From Leptothermofonsia sichuanensis E412 (GTDB lineage Bacteria > Cyanobacteriota > Cyanobacteriia > Leptolyngbyales > Leptolyngbyaceae): DNA of 64,000 nt. Positions 17,340 to 31,014 of the stretch are shown one piece after another. Position numbers and translations under genes: made by a program. Where the stretch lies: contig NZ_CP072600.1 in the NCBI RefSeq assembly GCF_019891175.1, positions 4,092,001 to 4,156,000 of the forward strand, given 5' to 3'. Under the pieces are notes generated by a model that did no database searches, was not told the DNA's origin, and saw only the letters and a program-made list of their open reading frames with translations. Position 1 is the first letter of the stretch; every line of letters begins with the position of its first letter.

Positions 17340-17709
17340 AATTCTGCTAGTAGAAGATAACGAAATGAACCGGGACATGCTCTCCCGTCGCCTGGAACGA
17401 AAAGGGCATCAGATTTTAATTGCAATTGATGGCGAACAGGGCGTGAGCATGGCCTGCTCAGAGTCACCGGACCTGATTTTGATGGACATGAGCCTGCCAG
17501 TGCTGGATGGTTGGGAAGCCACGCGCCAGCTAAAAGCCTTACCCCAAACCCAGTCCATTCCAATTATTGCGCTGACGGCCCACGCGATGGCGGGCGATCG
17601 CGACAAGTGCATCCAGGCAGGCTGTGACGACTATGACACCAAACCCGTCGAGTTCCCCCGGCTAATGGGCAAAATCCAGGCATTCCTGAGTAAGGAGGTA
17701 GGGTCGTGA
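17332..17709 (+). CDS. Single-domain response regulator (CheY/DivK-like)
   Basis: A stand-alone receiver of 125 residues from the ATG at 17332 ([20 protein letters not shown]). All key residues are present: the acidic pair ED in LLVEDN, phospho-acceptor Asp in [15 protein letters not shown], Thr in IALTAHAM and Lys in YDTKPVEF. There is no output domain. The start overlaps the upstream kinase by 8 bp, and the stop overlaps the downstream GTG by 4 bp (GTGA). The position between two hybrid kinases suggests it shuttles phosphate between them or to another partner (inference). Confidence 0.93.
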
Positions 17710-19694
17710 CCGATCTACTCCATGTGCTGGTTGTCGATGATGACGAACCTACCCGCATCTACTTATCCCGCCAACTGCGCCAGTTTAATTTGCATGTGAC
17801 AGCGGTTGAAACGGGCAGAGAAGCCATTCACTGGATTCAACGCCAGCCCTTCGACCTGATCCTGCTCGACATCCTGATGCCAGGAATGGATGGGTTTCAG
17901 ACCCTGAAATTGCTCAAAGCAGATCCAGCCCTCAGTCCTATCCCAGTCATTGTGGTCTCTGGACTGGATGACCTGGACAGTTTGATTCGTTGTATCGAAT
18001 TGGGGGCAGAGGACTATCTGTTTAAGCCGCTCAACCCGGTTCTGTTAAAAGCCCGTATCAATGCTTGCCTGGAACGCAAACATCTGCGCGACCAGGAGAA
18101 GGCATACCTTGAGCAATTACAGATGGAAAAAGCTGATGCTGAGAGAGCGAACCGGGCAAAAAGCATCTTTCTGGCAAATATGAGCCATGAATTGCGCACG
18201 CCTCTGAACGCCATCATCGGCTACAGTGAAATACTTCTAGAAGACATTCAAGAACTGGACCCTGGGCTGATTCCCGACCTCGACAAAATCCATTCTTCCA
18301 GTAAGCATCTACTTGCCCTGATTAATGACATCCTGGATATTTCCAAGATTGAAGCCGGCAAGATGGATCTCTATCTTGAAAACTTTGATATTGCCCCCTT
18401 GATTGAAGAAATAGTGAAAACAACCCGGCCCTGGGTTGAGAAAAACGGCAATACACTCAGGGTTGACTACCCCAAAGACCTGGGTTATATGCACACTGAC
18501 CTGGGTAAAGTCAGGCAAATCCTCCTTAATTTGTTAAGCAACGCCAGCAAGTTTACTGAAAAGGGAGTCATCAGTTTAACCGTTGAGAAACGGTGGGTTG
18601 GTGGGGAAACGGATGTGATCTTCACCATTTCTGACACCGGCATTGGCATTCACCCGGATTTACAGGCAACTATTTTTGAAGTATTTAACCAGGGTGATAA
18701 TTCTTCAACCCGAAAATATAGTGGCACCGGGTTAGGGCTGGCCCTCAGCCAGCGGTTTTGTCATATGCTGGGAGGAACGATTTCAGTAGAAAGTACCCCC
18801 GGAGAGGGAGCGGTTTTTACCGTTTCACTCCCCGTGGATGTGATTGACCATCAAGTCTCGACAGTCTTTGCCTCAACCACACCTGCGTCCCATGCTTCAG
18901 AGGTGCCACCTCAACCAGAAGTCTTTACGTCGTCACCGGACAGTGGCTTGATTCTGGTGATTGATGACGATCGCACCGTGCGTGATTTGATGGTCAAAAC
19001 TCTAAATCAGGAAGGATTTCGAGTCGTAACCACCTGGTCTGGTGAAGAAGGACGCCGGCTGGCACGGGAACTCCGTCCCTGCCTGATTCTGCTCGATCTG
19101 ATGCTGCCAGAGGATAATAGCTGGGCAATTCTGTCGGCGCTTAAGGCAGATCCTGGACTGGCAGAAATTCCAGTGATTATGATGGCGATCGCCAGAGATC
19201 AGCGTGCCGGATTCACCCTCGGCATCTCTGACTATTTAATGAAACCGGCTGACTTCAAACGCATTACCCTGCTACTGCACCACTGCCGCAACCAGATTGC
19301 CGCTGGCACTATTCTGCTGGTTCAGGAAGACACCACTACCCGTCAGGTAATCCAGCGTTTACTGGAGAAAGAGGGCTGGACCCTTGCGATCGCGGATAAC
19401 ACCCACCTTGCTCTGGAATTAGTTCATCAGGTTCAACCTGACCTGGTGCTCCTGGATCTAATGCCGCCGGATATGAAAGGCTTAGAATTCATTGCCCATC
19501 TTCGCCAGCATCCCCATTTTCATGCGCTCCCGATTGTAGTGGCTACTGCCCAGGAGCCTGCCAGCGATCACTATCTATGGCTCAACCGTTACGTTGAAAC
19601 CTTGTTGCAGCAGGAAGAATACAGTTGCGAGAAGCTGTTAATCGAGGTGCGTAAGTTAGTCACTACTTGCGCCCAGTCAAGGGTCTGCGTCTAA
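17706..19694 (+). CDS. Cytoplasmic hybrid kinase REC-HisKA-HATPase-REC-REC with degenerate receivers
   Basis: A 662-residue protein without membrane helices; GTG start at 17706. The N-terminal receiver (1-120, [25 protein letters not shown]) leads through a coiled linker ([13 protein letters not shown]) to HisKA, with His near 161 ([18 protein letters not shown]), and HATPase (about 265-380). Two more receivers follow. In the middle one the switch Thr is Ala (MMAIARD); in the last the conserved Lys of the sister proteins (EKGAY) is Gln (QQEEY). The last two may therefore be poor phosphate acceptors and act as binding domains. Because its input is a receiver, this kinase is likely controlled by an upstream kinase, perhaps the neighbour at 13380. 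The N-terminal receiver and linker closely match those of the cyclase at 22549. Confidence 0.92.
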
Positions 19695-19725
19695 CCATGC
19701 CCAACCAACCAGAAGTTGTCTTGCC

Positions 19726-22431
19726 ATGACCTTGCGTAAACGAACCCTGTTAATCATCAGTGCCACTTTAATTGGGCTGAATGCCGTTTTATACAGCATT
19801 TCTTCAGCCCTGTTGCTGGGAAGTTCTACCAGGGCAGAAGAACAGGACACCCGCCAGATTGTGAAGGGCGTTTTGAGCATGTTTGCTCAAAATCTGGAAC
19901 AACTCAGCGAAAGCTTCAATGATTGGGCAATGTGGGATGACGCTTACCAGTTTATTCAGGATGGAAATCAAGCATTCATCCAGTCTAATCTCGTTGACCC
20001 GCAGTTCACATATATGCGCGTCAACCTGATGATGTTCATTGATACCTCCGGGAAAGTGGTGTTTGGCACCGGGTTTGACCTTAAAAGTGGCAAAAAAGTC
20101 CCCATTCCAGATGCCCTGAAACCCCATCTTGTGAAAAGCGACCCCTTACTACAGCACTATTATCCCGCCAGCAGTCTACATGGAATTGTGCTGTTGCCAG
20201 AAGGACCCATGCTGGTTGTCTCCCGTCCCATTTTGACCAGCGAGGGGCAGGGTCCCATTCGGGGTGTCTTGATTGTTGGGCGCTACCTGGATAGTGCGGA
20301 AGCTTTTCGTTTTGCCCGACTGACCCGGTTTCCCGTCTTTTTACATGGAACCAATCAAACTGAAGTTCCAGCCGGTTTACAGCCAGTTCAATCTGCCCTC
20401 CAGATGAACCCGCCCATTCTGGTAAAAGCCGTCAATGAGCAAACGATCTCTGGCTATGCCCTGCTGAACGATATTTACGGTAAACCGGCGTTATTAATCC
20501 GAACCGATACTCCCCGCACTATTTATCATCAGGGACAGGCAACCCTGCGCTTCCTGACCTGGGCAATCTGGATAGCGGGTCTGGTGTTTGGTGGAGTCAC
20601 GCTGTTGCTCCTGGAAAAGCTGGTATTATCCCGCATCAGCCGACTCAGCCAGGAAGTCAGTGGCATTGGCATTGGCGGGGATCTCTCAGGGCGGGTGTCG
20701 GCAACCGGAGAGGATGAACTGGCTGGACTGGCGTTTAATATCAACACCATGCTGGATACCTTAGGTAAGTATCAACAGGAACGGCAGCAGGCTGCGATCG
20801 ATCTACAGAAAGCAAAAGAGTCTGCGGAGCAGGCAAGCAAAGCCAAAAGCCAGTTTCTTGCCAACATGAGCCACGAATTGCGCACACCGTTGAATGCCAT
20901 CATCGGCTACAGCGAAATGCTCCAGGAAGATGCCCAGGATATGGGGCATCACGACCTGATGCCTGACTTAGAGAAAATTCATAGTGCTGGCAAACACCTG
21001 CTGGGCTTAATTAACGATATTCTGGACCTGTCGAAAATTGAAGCTGGCAAGATGGATCTTTATCTGGAAACCTTTGATCTTGCCACTGCGATCGCCGATA
21101 TCGTCCATACCGTTCAACCCCTGGTACAGAAAAATGGCAACACTCTGATTGTTAACTGCCCCAGGGATATCGGTAACATGCATGCCGATCTGGTCAAACT
21201 CCGGCAAAATCTGTTCAACCTGATCAGCAATGCCAGTAAGTTTACACACCAGGGGACCATCACGCTAACGGTGGAAAAGGAGGAAATAGGGGACAAAAAC
21301 CAGGAAACTGGGTTCCAGGAGGAAGCATCTGATAATCAGTCTCCGACCCCCGATACCCGACCCCCGATACCCTCTCTCCGTTTCACCGTCTCCGACACTG
21401 GCATTGGGATGACGGACGAGCAGATGGGCCGACTGTTTGAGGCGTTTACCCAGGCGGACGCATCCACCACCCGGAAATATGGTGGCACTGGCTTGGGGTT
21501 GGCCATCACAAAGCGCTTTTGCCAGATGATGGGCGGCGACATCACAGCAGCCAGTGAACCGGGCAGGGGAACTACCTTCACAATGACCCTGCCCATCAAG
21601 ATGACGGATCCCAGGGTCGAACCCCAGGAGAGTCCTATCCAGACTATTCATTTACCATCTCAACCCCCCGGAGCCAGTACCGTTCTGGTGATTGATGACG
21701 ACCCCACCATGCACGACCTGATGGTCCGGGTCCTCCACAAAGAAGGGTTTCGAGTGGAACTGGCAGCCAGTGGGGCAGAGGGAATTCGTAAAGCCAGGGA
21801 TTTACACCCTGATGCCATTACACTGGATGTCATGATGCCCAGCATGGATGGCTGGGCAGTGCTCTCTGCCCTTAAATCAGACCCGGAACTGGCCGATATC
21901 CCGGTCATCATGGTAACGATGGTAGATGACAAGAAAATTGGCTTTACGCTGGGGGCGTCAGACTATTTGACCAAGCCTGTGGATCGTAGTCAACTGGCGG
22001 CAGTGCTGAGGAAATATCGGTGTGAAAATCCTCCCTGCCCCATCATGCTGGTGGAAGATGACCCCGTTAACCGTGATCTGCTCCGGCAGATTCTGGAGAA
22101 GGAGGGGTGGACTGTTACTGAGGCAGAAAATGGACGGATTGCTTTGCAATTGTTGGAGAAAGACCTGCCAGAACTGATTCTGCTGGATTTGATGATGCCA
22201 GAACTGGATGGGTTCGAGCTGATTGCCGAACTGAGACAACGCCCAGAATGGCGATCGCTGCCAATCGTGGTCATTACAGCCAAAGATATTACTCCAGCGG
22301 AGCATCTGAAATTAAAGGGCGCCGTGGCTCAAATTTTCCAGAAAGGAGCCTTTAGCCGCGAAGAATTACTTACTGAAGTGAAAAATCTGGTTTCAACCTC
22401 TGTTGATCGATCGTCTTCTTTAATCACTTAA
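19726..22431 (+). CDS. CHASE4-HAMP hybrid sensor histidine kinase with two receivers
   Basis: A 901-residue membrane sensor. Helix 1 (about 7-32) is followed by a CHASE4 periplasmic domain (about 45-255, with [11 protein letters not shown] and [19 protein letters not shown]). Then come helix 2 (about 275-300), HAMP (about 300-350), HisKA with His near 383, and HATPase (about 490-630, [15 protein letters not shown]). Receivers lie at about 645-765 ([22 protein letters not shown]) and 770-890 ([21 protein letters not shown]). CHASE4 binds unknown small ligands. A loop inside HATPase carries a duplicated 14-bp repeat (21345-21372) encoding a Pro/Asp-rich insert. The gene follows its neighbour after 31 bp. 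The core is nearly the same as in the other two kinases. Confidence 0.93.
21345..21372 (+). repeat. Exact tandem duplication of a 14-mer inside a kinase gene
   Basis: Two copies of GACCCCCGATACCC, resembling the heptamer repeats of the spacers, lie in coding sequence and encode [11 protein letters not shown] between the N box and the first G box of the HATPase domain. The unit length (14) is not a multiple of three, so loss or gain of one unit would shift the frame. Confidence 0.85.
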
Positions 22432-22548
22432 GGGGGGAAAATAATGCTTGCCGATTGCCTTAAACTCCTCACATTCATTAACCGACATACCATTACCATT
22501 TCCTTGTAGATTGGAGTTGCCAGAGGTGACTGGATAGATGAGGTAGCT

Positions 22549-23604
22549 ATGAATGCCGAACAAGGCTCAATGCTTGTAGTGGATGACGTTGAAGCAAACC
22601 GCGATTTGCTTTCCCGGCGGCTTCAGCGACAGGGGCATACAGTTGTTGTAGCTGAGAACGGGCGGCAGGCACTTGAGCGCCTGAGAGAACAGCAGTTTGA
22701 TCTGATTCTCTGCGACATCATGATGCCAGAGATGAATGGCTATCAAGTACTGGAACATCTCAAAGCCGATCCAGCTCTCAGACATATTCCAGTCATTATG
22801 GTGTCTGCTCTGGACGATATTGACAGCGTGGTGCGGTGTATTGAACTGGGGGCAGAAGATTATCTCTTCAAACCATTCAACCCTACCTTGCTCAAAGCAC
22901 GCATCAATGCATGTTTGGAGAAAAAACGCCTGCGCGACCAGGAACAAGCATATCTGAAACAACTTCAAGCCGAGCAGGAAAAATCTGAGCGACTACTGTT
23001 GAGCATTCTGCCCCGCCCGGTTGCCGAACAGTTGAAACAGACCCAGAGCACAATCGCAGATAGCTTTGCTGAAGCAACTGTTCTGTTTGCAGATATTGTG
23101 GACTTTACAGGTATTTCTACTCATCGATCGCCGATTGAAATGGTCAACCTGCTAAACCACATTTTCTCTGCGTTTGACAATCTGGCAGAGAAGCACGGGC
23201 TGGAAAAAATTAAGACCATTGGGGATGCCTACATGGTGGTTGGTGGTATTCCCAAACACCGTCCAGATCATGCAGAGGCGATCGCTGACATGGCTCTCGA
23301 TATGCAGATCGCCATCTCTAAGTTTAACAGCGAGACCGGCGAGTCCTTCAGCATCCGTATCGGCATCAGCACAGGTCCCGTCGTGGCTGGAGTCATTGGC
23401 ACCAAGAAATTTATCTATGACCTCTGGGGTGACACCGTAAACACAGCCAGTCGCATGGAGTCCCACGGCTTTCCTGGTGCCATCCAGGTCACAGATAGCA
23501 CCTATCAATGTCTCAAAGACAAGTACCTGCTGGAAGAACGCGGTATGATTCCAGTCAAAGGCAAAGGAGAGATGCAAACTTTTCTGCTGAAAGGAAGAAA
23601 ATAG
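22549..23604 (+). CDS. Receiver-adenylate cyclase (class III)
   Basis: A 351-residue soluble protein. The receiver at 6-125 (VVDDVEAN with D12/D13, phospho-acceptor D56 in LCDIMMPEMNG, FKPFNP) joins by a helical linker (RLRDQEQAYLKQLQAEQEKS) to a class III cyclase domain (about 170-350). Both metal-binding Asp are present (LFADIVDFTGIS and IGDAYMVVGG). The purine-selecting pair is Lys (LEKIKTIGDAYM) and Asp (YDLWGDTVN), which marks ATP rather than GTP as substrate. NTASRME supplies the transition-state Asn and Arg. Phosphorylation of the receiver probably controls cAMP synthesis. The gene lies 117 bp after the CHASE4 kinase, on the same strand, as the likely output of the cluster. Confidence 0.94.
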   Translation: MNAEQGSMLVVDDVEANRDLLSRRLQRQGHTVVVAENGRQALERLREQQFDLILCDIMMPEMNGYQVLEHLKADPALRHIPVIMVSALDDIDSVVRCIELGAEDYLFKPFNPTLLKARINACLEKKRLRDQEQAYLKQLQAEQEKSERLLLSILPRPVAEQLKQTQSTIADSFAEATVLFADIVDFTGISTHRSPIEMVNLLNHIFSAFDNLAEKHGLEKIKTIGDAYMVVGGIPKHRPDHAEAIADMALDMQIAISKFNSETGESFSIRIGISTGPVVAGVIGTKKFIYDLWGDTVNTASRMESHGFPGAIQVTDSTYQCLKDKYLLEERGMIPVKGKGEMQTFLLKGRK

Positions 23605-25217: not shown

Positions 25218-26924
25218 TTACTCATGCACAATAAACTCCAGCGTCTCGTTCTGGGAACTGCCAAACTTGATCTGTGCCCCTGAATGGAGGGGGACTTCCT
25301 GCCGATGGATTTTTTGCCAGCCATTTGATTCCCCTGCTGGATCCAGAATCCAGGTGCCAAACCGGGAAAAGTCTTCCAGAAAATAGGCAACCTGACTGGT
25401 TCCATCCTGCTGAGATTGGCGGCAGAAAATGACCGCATGTTTACGCGACACGCCGCTCTGGTCTTCCTGAATCACCAGATCATTTTCAGCCCGGTCTCTG
25501 CCAACCCGCATGATGCCTCCCTGAATCGTCCAGACTTTAGCTGTTTTGAGCGATCGCAGAGAAGCATTAGAAATCTCCTGTCCAAACTTGGTAATCGTTC
25601 CAGGCATTTCCGTCGGTGTTGACTCCATCGGCTTCAGGAGTTCGCCATCATACTCCGGGTGCATGTAAAGAACGGGTAAGGTCCAGGCTGGCTGGTTGAA
25701 GCGGTACAGGGTGAGCAGGTGTTGCCTGGCGACTGCCACCGCCTGGTCGATCGGCATTCGCTCTGCCAGCGCTTTAGCAAAGGCCTGGATAAAACTGAGT
25801 GCCTCTTCATCTGTAATCGGCTCCCGCATTCCTAACACCGCCGGAACTCCATGATGAATCAGCACCTCCGCCAGACTGCTGCGTGGGATGGTCTGGGAGG
25901 GATGGGAGTTGGGTGAATCGCTGGAACCCTGGCTGCTGTGATCTGGCTGGGCACCCCAACAGGCATTGAACACCGCCAGCTTAACCTGCCGTCGGGTTAG
26001 AACCTGGGCTAATTCGGTCCCATTCAGAGTCATGCCAGGACGCAGATAGAGCAGCCCGCCATCAGGAGCTGGAACCCCATGACCAGAGTAGAAGAAGACG
26101 TTGTAAGTCTGGGTTTCCAGGGTCCGAATCAGTTCTGCTGGCGTGGGTTGCACAAGGGTATCGACCTGGCAGGGGGTACTCGTCATTCTGCCAATTCCGG
26201 TACTGCCTGAGATTTTGAGAACCCGCGCCAGGGCATCCGCTTCTTGCTTGAGCTGAAGGATATGACTGTCTGGATAACCAGTTGCTTCTCCCATCAACGA
26301 TGCATCTGCTGGGGCAGCGTCCTGACCCAGCACCAGCAGGATTTTCAACATATAGTCTGACCGAAGTGGCGGCAGGACATGCACATCACTGGTGGTGCGA
26401 CTGAACAGGAGTTGCTGACTGAGAGAAATGGCTTGCTTTCCGGCAGCGTCCTGCATGATTTCCCAGGGAAGGGCAATCATATCCGGATCTCGAATTTCTA
26501 ACCTCAACCTCAGGGGTTTCCCCTGTCCCATTGCAATCCCCTGGCTTTGATTGAGGCTGTTCTGAACCAGGCCATCAAATAGCCACTGCCATAGATGGAT
26601 CCCTAAATTTTGCATCAGCCGTCCAGCCCTCCCTACACGCAGCCCATTGTCAGCCACACCTTCCATTGGGGCTGTTTCCGGCACCAGTACTGAGTCTGGA
26701 AGAGGGGTGCTGACCTGAGAAACCTGTGGCACACTCGGTAATACCCTGGTTGAGAACATTTCCTGCCATCCCTGCCACAGATTGGTCAGGGATTCTGTCC
26801 AGAGGCATTCATGCAGTACAAATCCCCCCGGATAGGGAGCTTTAGTTACATGGATCGCAAAATGCCCCGCGGTCCGCAGGGGAGCGATCGCCAGACTTAA
26901 GCAGGGTATTTCAGAAAAGGACAT
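25218..26924 (-). CDS. CHAT-domain (caspase-like) protein fused to an FHA domain
   Basis: A protein of 568 residues from the ATG at 26922-26924 (MSFSEIPCLSLAI); a GTG nine codons upstream is also possible. The CHAT domain spans about 130-440 with the His-Cys dyad: His near 282 in VFFYSGHG and Cys near 322 in LAVFNACWGAQ, followed by LIHHGVPAVLGM and FAKALAERMPIDQAV. The FHA domain spans about 465-565 (IMRVGRDRAENDLVI, SGVSRKHAVI, EDFSRFGTWIL), with the phosphothreonine-binding Arg, Ser, Arg-Lys and Asn-like positions recognisable. CHAT proteases cleave protein targets, and FHA domains bind phosphothreonine. The fusion suggests a protease-like protein brought to phosphorylated partners. A PP2C gene lies upstream on the same strand. 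No membrane helix or signal peptide is seen. Substrate unknown. Confidence 0.88.
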   Translation of the reverse strand: MSFSEIPCLSLAIAPLRTAGHFAIHVTKAPYPGGFVLHECLWTESLTNLWQGWQEMFSTRVLPSVPQVSQVSTPLPDSVLVPETAPMEGVADNGLRVGRAGRLMQNLGIHLWQWLFDGLVQNSLNQSQGIAMGQGKPLRLRLEIRDPDMIALPWEIMQDAAGKQAISLSQQLLFSRTTSDVHVLPPLRSDYMLKILLVLGQDAAPADASLMGEATGYPDSHILQLKQEADALARVLKISGSTGIGRMTSTPCQVDTLVQPTPAELIRTLETQTYNVFFYSGHGVPAPDGGLLYLRPGMTLNGTELAQVLTRRQVKLAVFNACWGAQPDHSSQGSSDSPNSHPSQTIPRSSLAEVLIHHGVPAVLGMREPITDEEALSFIQAFAKALAERMPIDQAVAVARQHLLTLYRFNQPAWTLPVLYMHPEYDGELLKPMESTPTEMPGTITKFGQEISNASLRSLKTAKVWTIQGGIMRVGRDRAENDLVIQEDQSGVSRKHAVIFCRQSQQDGTSQVAYFLEDFSRFGTWILDPAGESNGWQKIHRQEVPLHSGAQIKFGSSQNETLEFIVHE

Positions 26925-27341
26925 GCGCGGGTTTACCTGGACCCATGACACGATACGGTGTTGTTTTATTCAGTCTAGTCGGTGTTTGGTGTTCATTGTT
27001 AATGATTATTCTCAGGGGTTGAAGGACGGGAACAGAAGCCGGGAAGCAGAGATAGCCAGTCAAGGAGTAATACCGATATGGCAGGAGGCAGGATCTGGGT
27101 ATAGCGACAGCCATGCGGGTGGGGACAAATTGGCAAACACGAACTCCGTCCATTTGCTCTTTTTCAACCTGTTCCCTGTTCCCCGTTCCCTGTCCCCTGT
27201 CCCCTGTCCCCTGATCCTCTGCCCTATCAGCAAGTTATGCCAGTAAGGCGCAAGTATTGCTGAATACCCTATGAATTGCAAGTTTCTAATTTATACAACC
27301 CTTAACTTATACCCAGAATCAACCATGCGCTCAGGCCCGGC
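26925..27341. other. Gene-free spacer of about 417 bp with heptamer repeats
   Basis: It lies between the PP2C gene and the CHAT-FHA gene, both on the minus strand. The span 27169-27213 is a run of TGTTCCC/TGTCCCC heptamers. The rest shows no gene. The CHAT-FHA promoter is expected near 26950-27100, but no box is clear enough to call. Confidence 0.55.
27169..27213. repeat. TGTCCCC-type heptamer tandem repeat
   Basis: Six to seven degenerate heptamers (CTGTTCC, CTGTCCC) in a row. They are of the same kind as at 8406-8435 and 57003-57030. Confidence 0.8.
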
Positions 27342-29699
27342 TCAAGGAGCAGTGGAGGCCTGAGAAGAGGGGCTGGCGGCACAGACTCCCAGTTGGGTGG
27401 GGGTCAGGGCAAGTTCCTGAGTAACCAGAGGCGCGATCGTTGCTTCCTCAACCCAGCCAGTCTGACCTGGCTGGACTGATCGGGGGGTGACACCTGCGGC
27501 TGAAGGGACTGAACACACCTTCAGCCGCAGCCAGTTCCCCTGATTGGGCACAAATTGACGGCTGGAAATTTGCAAAACACTGCCAATCGGAATGGTGCCC
27601 GTAGCCACAATGCCCTGAGTGGCATCTGGTTTTGGTGGTTGGGGTAAAAGAGTGATGGGAAGGGGCTGGTTACCTCCTGGCAACAGGGCACTGATCTGCA
27701 CCAGAGAACCAACGCTTAAAGGCGGCAGTGGGCTGGGAGGTGGGGGTGGGGTGGGAGTAGGAGACGGAGACTCTATCACTACAGGGCTGGGACTGACAGC
27801 AGGCGTGGGAGTCATCCGCGATCGCAATTCCGGGATCACCAGAGCCGCGACCAGACTCACCAAAGTAACCACGCCAGCTGCCCCTAATACAAATGGAAGA
27901 GGATTGGCCGCCCCCCAATGATGGGATATTTCCGGTTTGAGGGTCTGCGAAGATCGCTGGGCTGTCAGGGAACCAGGCTCCCGGTCATCCGCAGGAAACT
28001 GACCCGCTGGATCCGGGAGCGGCATTGTCAGAACTTCATCCAGAGGCTTTAGCGAAGCAGGATTGTCCTGAGTTGTTTGACAATAAACCAGCCCTACGGT
28101 CACGTTATCATGGCCATTTTCGCTGTTGGCGATCGCTACCAGTCGTTGGCTGGCTGTTGCCAGGTCTACTTTGCCATCTAATACCGGCAATAATTCGGTC
28201 TGCCAGTGCTGTTCAACCCGATCGTTATCGCTTAAACCGTCTGAGCACAATAAAAATAAGCAGTCCTCATCCAAAATAAACCGCTGCACGGTCGGATGCA
28301 GCAACGAGGAGGTATTCATTCCCAGAGCCTGGATTAGTGACCCGGATCCAGGCTGTTGTAGAGCTTCCCGATAGAGGGCATAGCCTAACCGCACTTCTCT
28401 TGATGCCAGGTCATCATCTAAAGTGACTTGATGACAGCCCGTGCGACTGATCCGGTAAACACGGCTGTCTCCCACATGGGTAATGTAAAGTTCATGGTGA
28501 TGAACCAGAGACATAACCAGCGTGGTCCCCATGCGCTGACGCTCCTGCCGCTGCTCACTATCATTGCGCCGACTGATAACATCATTGGCATTGAGGGCTG
28601 CCTGTTCCAGGTGGTGGGGCAGCGCTGTGGAGTCGAGCGACGCTGGCCGGGTAAAAAGTCGTTGCAGGTTTTGTTGAATCGTGGCGATCGCCAAGTTTGA
28701 CGCCACATCTCCGCCTTCATGCCCCCCAATCCCATCACACACGACGACCAGTGAAGCCGTTGTGGCAGCTAAAGCAGAGTCTGGGTTGAACCCATCCCCA
28801 CCAGAAATGGAAACCTTTAGCACGGAGCCGCTCGGAGGATAGCAGGCATCCTCATTCCGTTGCCGACTCGGTCCCTGATCTGTGCGGGTTGCAATCTGAA
28901 TCTGACGAGATTGCTCCTGCCCACAAATCGTCAATGCCCGATCCAGAACCATTACCAGTTGCTCTGCATTTCGGATCTGTCCCTGGATCATCTGCTGACA
29001 AATTTTGTCCAAAAAGCCAGCAATTTCCATCTGGGCTGTAGGCTGCCATTGTTGCCACAGCTTTGCCAGACTACTCAGGGATGGAGTCTTCCGTCCATCT
29101 GCCTGTAACTCCAGCACTCGTACCAGCGAACCCTCTACTTTCAAACAATCTGGACAGAGGAGTGTAGAAGCTGCGCCCTCCAGACTGAACGGTTGCCACA
29201 ACTGGGCAATTTGCCACAGCCAGTTTAGTTGCCTTAAACTACTGCTGTCTTTCCAGACATCCGTCAGGGCAGGCATCAGGGTTCCTTCCAGGGATGCGGT
29301 TGACTGGTTGCCTGTTCCATCCGGGTAAATCGGGGCCTGTTCCAGGAGCAAAATCTCAGAAGTCGCCCGCTTTTGTTCGACTCTCACCAGGCCAAAGACC
29401 TGGGGGGTATGGGGCTGAAAAATTGAAAGCTTGAGATAGGTTTCCACCCATGCAGACAGTTCTTCTGGCAGTTCAGGGGGAAGACCTGGATGGGTATCTA
29501 AGACAATTCGATCCTGCTTCAACAGATACCGACCACCTAAAAAGCTGCCGGGTTGCAAGGTTTCTATTCCCTCTCCAGTTGCCCACAAATACCGTCTGGG
29601 AATAGGAGTACGGCATTGCTGACAAAATTTGTGGCTCTCAGGATTGGGAGCCTGACATAGGGGGTTAGGGCAAAAAATTGTGACCGCGTCGCTTTGCAT
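27342..29699 (-). CDS. PP2C-type Ser/Thr phosphatase with zinc ribbon, degenerate kinase-like region and membrane anchor
   Basis: A 785-residue protein. It has an N-terminal zinc ribbon (Cys10, 15, 26, 29 in CPNPLCQ and KFCQQC) and a region at about 45-260 (GSFLGGRYLL, ILLLEQAPIYPDG, LNWLWQIAQLW) that resembles a kinase fold without catalytic motifs. The PP2C domain follows at about 268-540 with metal-binding residues in RNED, VVVCDGIGGHEGG, THVGDSRVYR, LLCSDGLSD and GHDNVTVG. One transmembrane helix lies near 605-630 (FVLGAAGVVTLVSLVAALVI), then a Pro-rich linker and a C-terminal SH3-like region. PP2C enzymes remove phosphate from Ser/Thr. It lies upstream of, and on the same strand as, the FHA-containing gene, so the two may act on the same phosphoproteins (inference). 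The kinase-like reading is tentative. Confidence 0.87.
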   Translation of the reverse strand: MQSDAVTIFCPNPLCQAPNPESHKFCQQCRTPIPRRYLWATGEGIETLQPGSFLGGRYLLKQDRIVLDTHPGLPPELPEELSAWVETYLKLSIFQPHTPQVFGLVRVEQKRATSEILLLEQAPIYPDGTGNQSTASLEGTLMPALTDVWKDSSSLRQLNWLWQIAQLWQPFSLEGAASTLLCPDCLKVEGSLVRVLELQADGRKTPSLSSLAKLWQQWQPTAQMEIAGFLDKICQQMIQGQIRNAEQLVMVLDRALTICGQEQSRQIQIATRTDQGPSRQRNEDACYPPSGSVLKVSISGGDGFNPDSALAATTASLVVVCDGIGGHEGGDVASNLAIATIQQNLQRLFTRPASLDSTALPHHLEQAALNANDVISRRNDSEQRQERQRMGTTLVMSLVHHHELYITHVGDSRVYRISRTGCHQVTLDDDLASREVRLGYALYREALQQPGSGSLIQALGMNTSSLLHPTVQRFILDEDCLFLLCSDGLSDNDRVEQHWQTELLPVLDGKVDLATASQRLVAIANSENGHDNVTVGLVYCQTTQDNPASLKPLDEVLTMPLPDPAGQFPADDREPGSLTAQRSSQTLKPEISHHWGAANPLPFVLGAAGVVTLVSLVAALVIPELRSRMTPTPAVSPSPVVIESPSPTPTPPPPPSPLPPLSVGSLVQISALLPGGNQPLPITLLPQPPKPDATQGIVATGTIPIGSVLQISSRQFVPNQGNWLRLKVCSVPSAAGVTPRSVQPGQTGWVEEATIAPLVTQELALTPTQLGVCAASPSSQASTAP

Positions 29700-29747: not shown

Positions 29748-30656
29748 CTAACAGGAAAAAAGCATTGTCAGACAATTGGGAAAGTCGGTAATCAGTCCGT
29801 TGACCCCTGAATCAATTAACTGTCTCATGATTGTAGGGTCATTGACTGTCCAGGGAATCACTGAAAAGCCTGCTTTCTGTAGTTCTGAAACAGGTTGCAG
29901 GAATACTGGAGATTCTGGAAGCAGCGTTTCAAAGTTGGGAGAGTAAACATCGATAAAACCAGTTGCCTGGAGCAATGAAGCGAGATCTCCCTGAGCATCC
30001 TCAAACTCCAGCCCTGCCAGGAAAGGGGATGCCCGCCCTGAACCCCAGAGTGTGCTGGTTGTTTGATCATGTAGCACCAGGGCAGCGGTTTGAATGGCTG
30101 GGTTAAGCTGTTTGACCTGCCGCAACACTCGCCAATCAAAGGATTGAATGGTTGTTCGTTCAGTCACATTGTTTTGAACAATGATTTCTACCAATTTCTC
30201 AGCAAAAATTTCTGGGCTGGCAGTTGCATCAGGCTGTAAAGGGCTGACCTTACTCTCAATGTTGTAGCAAATCTGGGGATTTCTGGCTTCAGCCAGGTCA
30301 AACACCTGTTGTAAAGTCGGGATTCGAGAGCCTGGAACCGGTTTCTGTTGGGGGAAACGAACTGGATCCGGATTTAAAGTGCCACAGTCAAAAGCTTGAA
30401 TTTCTGTAACAGTCAGGTTTTTGATCCAGAGGGGCGGGGCGGGGGGGCACCGATCGCCCTTTGCATCCAGGCAGAGGGATGGATTGATAAACGGATCATG
30501 GCAAACCACCAGAACCCCATCGGCAGAAATGCCCGTGTCCATTTCCAGGGTTGTCACTCCCAGGGCGATCGCATACTCAAACCCTGCCAGGGTATTCTCA
30601 GGACGTAAACCCCTTGCGCCCCGATGCCCCTGGATATCAAACCGATTTCGACTCAT
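29748..30656 (-). CDS. Glycerophosphodiester phosphodiesterase family protein
   Basis: Hydrolyses glycerophosphodiesters to glycerol-3-phosphate and an alcohol; a TIM-barrel fold. From the ATG at 30654-30656 (MSRNRFDIQGHRGARGL) it is 302 residues. Catalytic residues are visible: His-Arg in GHRGARGLRPENT, Glu-Asp in TLEMDTGISADG, His in VVCHDP, and Glu in YNIESKVSP. The C-terminal VNDPTIMRQLIDSGVNGLITDFP is typical. No signal peptide is seen, so it is probably cytoplasmic. It overlaps the upstream small membrane protein gene by 20 bp, suggesting one transcript. Confidence 0.9.
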   Translation of the reverse strand: MSRNRFDIQGHRGARGLRPENTLAGFEYAIALGVTTLEMDTGISADGVLVVCHDPFINPSLCLDAKGDRCPPAPPLWIKNLTVTEIQAFDCGTLNPDPVRFPQQKPVPGSRIPTLQQVFDLAEARNPQICYNIESKVSPLQPDATASPEIFAEKLVEIIVQNNVTERTTIQSFDWRVLRQVKQLNPAIQTAALVLHDQTTSTLWGSGRASPFLAGLEFEDAQGDLASLLQATGFIDVYSPNFETLLPESPVFLQPVSELQKAGFSVIPWTVNDPTIMRQLIDSGVNGLITDFPNCLTMLFSC

Positions 30657-30885
30657 CTTCTTTTGACCACGCTTCCAGCAAGCCACTAGAGGCGACCAGC
30701 CGTGGATAGAGCACTAGAAAGAACACCATCCAGACTAACACCGGAACTGCCACAACCAGACTCACCCAGAGGGTTCTTGTCAGCAACCAGCTTCCGCCAA
30801 TTAGCCCACTACCGGTCAGGAAGATTGACCAGGGCTGACACCACCAGGGCTTATATGCCCAGACACTCGGAATTTTCTCTGCCAT
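30637..30885 (-). CDS. Small two-helix membrane protein (DUF6737-like)
   Basis: An 82-residue protein from the ATG at 30883-30885 (MAEKIPSVWAYKPWWCQPWS); upstream codons in frame are unlikely. Two hydrophobic helices lie at about 20-38 and 40-62, with a short charged tail EAWSKEDESKSV. I recall this pattern from a conserved cyanobacterial family of unknown function, DUF6737, but the name is from memory. It overlaps the phosphodiesterase gene by 20 bp. A dispersed repeat (30979-31014) lies about 95 bp upstream. Confidence 0.7.
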   Translation of the reverse strand: MAEKIPSVWAYKPWWCQPWSIFLTGSGLIGGSWLLTRTLWVSLVVAVPVLVWMVFFLVLYPRLVASSGLLEAWSKEDESKSV

Positions 30886-30978
30886 TGGTTTGTTATGCGT
30901 TAGTAGTTCTGGTAATAAGACGATGTATGTGACATACACAAAGGAAAATTTCTGTGAAGGATTGGGGAAGTAATCACC

Positions 30979-31014
30979 TGTAAAACTCACCACAAAGGCA
31001 CAAAGGACACAAAG
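30979..31014 (-). repeat. Dispersed TTTGTG-rich repeat, copy 2
   Basis: The reverse complement reads CTTTGTGTCCTTTGTGCCTT then TGTGGTGAGTTTTACA, nearly identical to 11347-11385. It lies in the spacer upstream of the small membrane protein gene. Confidence 0.7.

Follow-up and report, generated by a model that had tools for sequence, protein, structure and literature searches.

CHAT proteases, FHA domains and PP2C phosphatases are each already known, and to our knowledge the CHAT systems described so far are controlled by guide RNA, cyclic nucleotides or TPR partners. SAVED-CHAT belongs to defence systems, separase is held by securin, and the mycobacterial EmbR and GarA and the corynebacterial OdhI are phospho-readers of kinase systems. 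In Craspase, the CHAT protease Csx29 (TPR-CHAT) cleaves Csx30, a protein encoded in its own locus (PMC10028731). HetF is described as a putative protease that loses its function upon active-site mutation and interacts with FtsI (PMC8406250). Here we analyzed a 64,000-nucleotide stretch of the Leptothermofonsia sichuanensis E412 genome (contig NZ_CP072600.1, positions 4,092,001 to 4,156,000; hereafter the window), which encodes a CHAT-FHA fusion protein with a zinc-ribbon PP2C phosphatase next door, and we followed this gene pair, together with a family of open reading frames (ORFs) designated fam1, through the genomes of the class.

We read the locus as part of a phosphorylation-gated proteolytic switch, in which a protease of the HetF/separase/Csx29 type would work with fam1 as its substrate or regulator and would be reset by the phosphatase; we give this reading a probability of roughly 0.4. 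The computation supports the domains, the intact catalytic dyad, the fold, the conservation of the gene pair, a near-obligate co-occurrence with fam1 and a membrane anchor on the phosphatase. We did not find the CHAT-FHA fusion, the phosphatase neighbor or the fam1 partnership described in the open literature, most subscription journals lying outside the scope of that search.

Domains, fold and relatives of CHAT-FHA

The listed GTG-initiated ORF (25218-26951, minus strand) matches the Pfam models for CHAT (PF12770; 76.7 bits, cut-off 24, E 2.7e-21) and FHA (PF00498; 45.6 bits, cut-off 20.7, E 9.8e-12). Because alignment with most orthologues begins only at about residue 8-13 of this frame, translation probably starts at the ATG at 26924. 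The fusion with an intact His-Cys dyad that a first-pass annotation had described is borne out: both domains exceed their cut-offs, and all 81 aligned CHAT-FHA proteins have His282 and Cys322 (residue counts cover all 80 loci and the window; the alignment comprises the window and 37 of the 80 loci). No TPR model appears among the Pfam matches to CHAT-FHA up to E 1, where CHAT and FHA alone match, and no hydrophobic membrane segment (19-residue window above 1.6) was found in any of the 38 aligned rows. Domains, dyad and fold support the prediction of a soluble cysteine protease of the caspase/separase fold, which would be proteolytically active.

In structural comparisons, residues 5-431 of the predicted model matched SAVED-CHAT best (Z 18.7, 183 residues, 2.8 Å). 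Next came Craspase's Csx29/TPR-CHAT, with Z 13.7-16.4 across 284-314 residues among the rows listed, and human separase, with Z reaching 14.9 across 284-299 residues; the N-terminal half of the model also aligns with Csx29 and separase. Residues 448-568 match the FHA domains of EmbR (Z 15.2), GarA and OdhI (both Z 14.4), Chk2 and Rad53. These matches to CHAT proteins and FHA domains make CHAT-FHA a CHAT protein with an FHA domain in place of the TPR or SAVED regulator.

Csx29 shares the CHAT fold and, like CHAT-FHA in many genomes, has a partner protein in its own locus, but no TPR model matches CHAT-FHA, whose control would lie in a phospho-reader and not in a guide RNA; no Csx30 chain was present among the listed fam1 matches, and kinship between fam1 and Csx30 is still conceivable. 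Separase and SAVED-CHAT have the fold and the His-Cys dyad in common with CHAT-FHA but differ in the regulatory domain. EmbR, GarA and OdhI share the FHA fold, but they carry no protease fusion, and the canonical FHA Asn is mostly lost in CHAT-FHA.

Inside the same genomes, the closest CHAT relative is HetF. In the window's genome it is 37% identical over residues 114-447 (153 bits), and the next CHAT-like matches score 29 bits or less. HetF is built with TPR repeats and a transmembrane part (PMC8406250); CHAT-FHA has an FHA domain instead. Against the HetF model NF045509, CHAT-FHA scores 163.1 bits, far under the 1200-bit cut-off.

FHA domains contact phosphothreonine through an Arg, a Ser and an Asn, with the Ser contacting the phosphate. 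In the window's protein, Arg476 and Ser493 are present (the Gly-Arg and Ser-x-x-His positions are kept) and the Asn of the NGT motif is replaced by Phe522. Of the 81 CHAT-FHA proteins, 80 retain the phosphate-contact Ser. Judged from these residues, most members could plausibly bind phosphopeptides, an ability that several lineages may have lost. Phosphothreonine reading, which had been ascribed earlier to this domain, is only partly borne out by the residues: the window's Arg and Ser stand, while its Asn is a Phe, and the Arg is lost in 16 of the 81 proteins.

A separate observation concerns the FHA end. Part of another, 711-codon open frame (G006:C1:2565310-2565693) is 53% identical to CHAT-FHA residues 444-576, and this frame is possibly a donor or a copy of the FHA domain.

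Partners of CHAT-FHA: fam1 and the phosphatase

CHAT-FHA orthologues were found in 148 of 290 genomes of the class and in 80 of 131 genera. The ORF family fam1 (median 210 residues) was present in 67 of 80 loci, and in 61 of the 74 evaluable ones it lay directly after CHAT-FHA, in the same orientation. It is absent from the window; in the window's genome it is encoded at G000:C1:4669964-4670716. Among 39 near-relative genomes, 32 carry both CHAT-FHA and fam1 and seven carry neither, a genome of the window's own genus (G001) being one of the seven. Across the 290 genomes, CHAT-FHA and fam1 each occur in 148, with both in 147, neither in 141 and two discordant (phi 0.99). A control neighbor, the FHA-PrsW gene described in the last section, gave a phi of 0.27 with CHAT-FHA (both 102, CHAT-FHA only 46, control only 60, neither 82).

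In 118 of the 147 genomes with both genes, fam1 lies downstream of CHAT-FHA, on its strand and at most 1.5 kb away, a distance that allows for an intervening small gene. It lies elsewhere in the other 29, more than 0.5 Mb away on the same contig in five and on another contig in 24, some of these perhaps through assembly breaks. Linkage alone is insufficient to explain the co-occurrence, because these 29 genomes, the window's own included, keep both genes although they were not seen adjacent. Joint absence also recurs within families (G001 in f1; four g58 genomes versus g124 and g127 in f30).

Both discordant genomes could be followed individually. In G181, CHAT-FHA ends 136 bases from the contig end, and fam1 could lie off the contig. 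In G057, some 0.7 kb separates the PP2C gene from fam1, and this gap holds a recognizable remnant of the CHAT-FHA C terminus (37.5% identity to residues 510-565 by tblastn against an 8-kb stretch, E 2e-5); read from the sequence, this is a natural loss of CHAT-FHA. The gene row at this locus (L146, G057:C16:52000-60000) consists of PP2C, the remnant of the CHAT-FHA C terminus, an intact fam1, FHA-PrsW and a peptide deformylase-like gene.

The fam1 protein is predicted to be almost wholly helical, with a predicted local distance difference test score (pLDDT) of 81.9 and a predicted template modeling score (pTM) of 0.62. In the alignment of 32 of the 67 fam1 loci, conservation falls on the helical C-terminal part and a YPWNP motif, and a hydrophobic membrane segment was found in none of the 32. 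No credible model match was obtained from Pfam (32 members and three proteins), NCBIfam (two) or PADLOC (three), and a profile search returned weak helical matches only, led by a designed bundle (E 0.005). By analogy, fam1 would be the best candidate for the substrate or an obligate regulator of CHAT-FHA, because Csx29, a structural match of CHAT-FHA, cleaves Csx30 of its own locus.

A single CHAT-FHA match was found in 146 of the 148 carriers, and in the other two the match falls in two pieces. Of the resulting 150 match rows, 137 contain no stop and 13 contain one. In three drafts (G009:C5, G011:C107 and G222:C173) CHAT-FHA is in two or three pieces. The split copies and the one-stop rows may represent assembly errors, start-region overhang or decaying genes.

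The pairing with the phosphatase, which had been proposed from the window by itself, is conserved and real. PP2C lies directly upstream of CHAT-FHA, meaning on the same strand and within 1.5 kb with a small intervening gene possible, in 94 of 127 evaluable genomes (out of 145 that carry both CHAT-FHA and a PP2C match), at a median gap of 132.5 bases. This arrangement was seen in at least ten families by hand reading (f1, f4, f8, f13, f17, f23, f24, f27, f31 and f37). Among the near relatives, where the seven genomes other than the 32 carriers have no CHAT-FHA match or only HetF-like ones, hand-read coordinates put PP2C immediately before CHAT-FHA, in the same orientation, in 20 of those carriers. 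Of the 80 named loci, 69 have enough upstream sequence, with PP2C just upstream in 35; the order PP2C, CHAT-FHA, fam1 was found in 27 of 66 evaluable loci. The co-occurrence of PP2C with CHAT-FHA gives a phi of 0.50.

The phosphatase had been annotated as a zinc-ribbon PP2C with a degenerate kinase-like part. Its identity is confirmed by the match to PF13672 (52.7 bits, cut-off 24) and by four N-terminal Cys that are invariant in the 32 aligned rows (the window and 31 of 39 PP2C loci). The metal motifs DG.GG, GDSR, SDGLSD and DN are invariant in the same rows, and the best profile match of the domain to solved PP2Cs has an E-value of 2.2e-34. A hydrophobic segment (window above 1.6) is present in 32 of 32 relatives, and the C-terminal part holds two invariant Cys (729 and 773). 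Zinc-ribbon and 4-Cys-prefix-kinase models gave sub-threshold matches to the N terminus.

The kinase-like part, on the other hand, finds no statistical support. No kinase catalytic model in Pfam matched any of the 32 relatives at E≤1, and two of the 32 showed a weak match to the PknG rubredoxin domain (best E 0.15). Comparison of residues 36-262 with 15 kinase domains from the same genome (hhalign) gave a probability of 0.7% and an E-value of 0.087, with a weak alignment in a kinase-like register, which would suit a strongly eroded kinase lobe; when the whole-length protein was compared with kinases by profile-profile search, the alignment fell elsewhere. Of the described phosphatases, the zinc-ribbon PP2Cs (PRK14559/NF011149) share the PP2C domain, but the window's protein scores 274 bits where PRK14559 requires 374. 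PrpJ of Anabaena (all1731), titled a plasma-membrane PP2C and reportedly involved in heterocyst maturation, is a possible counterpart.

Upstream of the window's PP2C lies a DUF6737 protein gene (30637-30993, minus strand). By eye, a similar-looking small ORF lies upstream in 10 of 80 loci (e.g. L077:1841-2086, plus strand).

A proposed phosphorylation-gated switch and the readings set against it

In the proposed switch, a Ser/Thr kinase would write a phosphothreonine mark, and the FHA domain would dock the protein bearing it, thereby joining the marked protein and the protease. fam1 would serve as the dedicated substrate or a substrate-presenting regulator of CHAT-FHA, as Csx30 does for Csx29. 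The membrane PP2C encoded upstream would erase the mark and reset the switch, its extracytoplasmic end perhaps sensing the signal that triggers the reset. We infer the proteolytic activity, the phosphopeptide binding, the role of fam1 as a substrate, the place of the phosphatase on this pathway and the output. That all three genes form one inherited cyanobacterial unit, in which a phosphothreonine reader controls a separase-like CHAT protease that comes with a dedicated substrate, fam1, and a membrane phosphatase of its own, is a more tentative proposition than the switch itself, although a possible one.

If true, the switch would join bacterial Ser/Thr phosphorylation to caspase-like proteolysis in one unit that roughly half of the cyanobacterial genomes sampled possess. 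Ser/Thr phosphorylation would then be a new input for CHAT control, with an output through cleavage of an unnamed protein family, and CHAT proteases encoded with their targets would extend from CRISPR defence to ordinary cell regulation. fam1 itself offers a testable candidate substrate for an uncharacterized protease, found from gene content alone.

Several findings weigh against this switch. The predicted structure of CHAT-FHA is of middling confidence (pLDDT 70.7, pTM 0.51). Its FHA domain is non-canonical, with Tyr, Phe or Trp at the NGT Asn position in 74 of 81 proteins, Cys in two and Asn in only five. The FHA Arg is kept in 65 and lost in 16, where Ser, Met, Cys, Lys, Phe or Val substitutes for it and the rest of the domain is kept (L068, L073, L075, L076, not all of L078-L081, L083, L089, L097, L099, L102, L109, L113 and L114). 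Ten of these 16 still show a PP2C gene within 5 kb upstream; the loss of the Arg thus does not accompany the loss of the phosphatase neighbor. PP2C relatives at E≤1e-130, paralogues included, were found in 145 of 148 CHAT-FHA carriers and also in 80 of 142 non-carriers; present in these 80 and missed in three carriers, the phosphatase therefore has other work. Among the recurrent neighbor families, read by eye only, no kinase was seen.

On the fam1 side, the CHAT-FHA/fam1 counts are not phylogenetically independent, and relatedness inflates them; the Fisher p-value for them takes no account of relatedness and is given no weight. The fam1 fold has no convincing relative in the PDB (Foldseek best E 0.23, VIA best Z 5.8), its first 78 residues being barely covered, and the candidate role of fam1 as a substrate is argued from analogy. 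Mirror-tree distances correlate at 0.87 for CHAT-FHA and fam1 (67 loci), and also at 0.86 for CHAT-FHA and the deformylase-like gene (24 loci). With the latter controlled for, partial correlations were 0.51 for CHAT-FHA/fam1 (24 loci), 0.61 for CHAT-FHA/PP2C (12) and 0.43 for CHAT-FHA/FHA-PrsW (24). Values so similar across pairs do not discriminate between them, and the test therefore singles out no pair.

The near-perfect co-occurrence and frequent adjacency of CHAT-FHA and fam1 would suit any obligate partner. fam1 might thus be a securin-like inhibitor, a chaperone or an activating subunit, with substrates elsewhere and with phosphorylation of fam1 or of the target controlling release. Separase is a structural match of CHAT-FHA, and fam1, with its conserved helical C-terminal part and YPWNP motif and with no membrane segment (0/32), has features that favor such a role; fam1 structure and profile searches, however, revealed no structural or sequence link to a known inhibitor, and we hold this alternative to be rather unlikely. 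Equally doubtful is the view that the working unit is CHAT-FHA with fam1 alone, the PP2C adjacency reflecting shared transcription or old linkage and the FHA domain docking independently of phosphorylation. PP2C tracks CHAT-FHA less tightly than fam1 does (phi 0.50 versus 0.99), it was not seen adjacent in 12 of the 32 near-relative carriers, and the Arg loss points the same way. Yet 94 of 127 evaluable genomes have it no more than 1.5 kb upstream, an arrangement seen in at least ten families, and all but one protein keep the phosphate-contact Ser, which argues against this view.

A role like that of HetF, in cell division or filament development mainly through binding of divisome or developmental proteins, would make the phosphatase a shared regulatory input. 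HetF is the closest relative and interacts with FtsI (PMC8406250). The reported tie of the Anabaena membrane PP2C PrpJ to heterocyst maturation would also suit this role, should PrpJ correspond to the window's PP2C. But CHAT-FHA has no membrane segment (0/38) and reaches 163 of the 1200 bits of the HetF model, and two genomes (G001 and G033) hold HetF-like CHAT matches with neither CHAT-FHA nor fam1, so the two systems are separable; this role we regard as improbable. An anti-phage or programmed-death module is far less probable again. Its appeal lies in the same-fold CHAT proteases of defence, SAVED-CHAT and Craspase (for the latter, PMC10028731), and in the CHAT domains placed in putative conflict systems of multicellular bacteria (PMC10907252). 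Against it stand the single match in 146 of 148 carriers, the presence of CHAT-FHA in about half of the 290 genomes, the lack of a hydrophobic membrane segment in fam1 and the frequent deformylase-like neighbor (24 of 80 loci, by eye). No toxin or pore partner was recognized among the neighbor families read by eye. PADLOC, whose library gives no cut-offs, returned a best E of 0.0065 for CHAT-FHA, 0.024 for one fam1, none for PP2C or FHA-PrsW, and another weak match at 0.013. Cell death and phage defence are thus unlikely, and of the module first proposed, in which Ser/Thr phosphorylation controls proteolysis or cell death, the anatomy and the conserved pair preserve a phosphorylation-linked protease module and leave cell death aside.

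Feature coordinates and neighboring genes

Coordinates of the CHAT-FHA and PP2C features in the window.
Feature	Position	Strand	Remarks
CHAT-FHA gene	25218..26924	-	568 aa; ATG start 26924, not GTG 26951
CHAT protease domain	25698..26600	-	Pfam match at 118-418 of 577-aa ORF
Catalytic His282 (YSGHG)	26079..26081	-	Invariant 81/81; codon read from DNA
Catalytic Cys322 (FNACWGAQ)	25959..25961	-	Invariant 81/81; codon read from DNA
FHA domain	25260..25508	-	Pfam match at 482-564 of 577-aa ORF
PP2C phosphatase gene	27342..29699	-	785 aa; Pfam PP2C_2 and PP2C
Zinc ribbon Cys10, Cys15, Cys26, Cys29	29613..29672	-	All four invariant, 32 rows
Region with no fold assigned, residues 36-262	28914..29594	-	Read earlier as degenerate kinase
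PP2C catalytic domain, residues ~265-540	28080..28907	-	Pfam; Asp metal motifs intact
Hydrophobic, probably transmembrane segment, residues 604-622	27834..27890	-	Followed by Pro-rich linker and C-terminal part

Two further genes recur near CHAT-FHA. A peptide deformylase-like gene, recognized by eye, is the frequent neighbor mentioned above. FHA-PrsW, an FHA domain fused to a PrsW intramembrane protease, was found in 30 of 80 loci (e.g. L069:7732-9123 and L119:7940-9325, both on the minus strand). In many genomes it is convergent to fam1 near CHAT-FHA, and its FHA motif is canonical by eye. As a third partner it was rejected on its phi of 0.27 versus 0.99 for fam1.

Scans of the window for Rfam families (at the gathering threshold) and for tRNAs gave no hits. 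To the left of a psbA-like gene, at 17706-23604 of the window, two histidine-kinase/receiver hybrids (by eye) and a receiver-nucleotide cyclase are encoded adjacent to one another.

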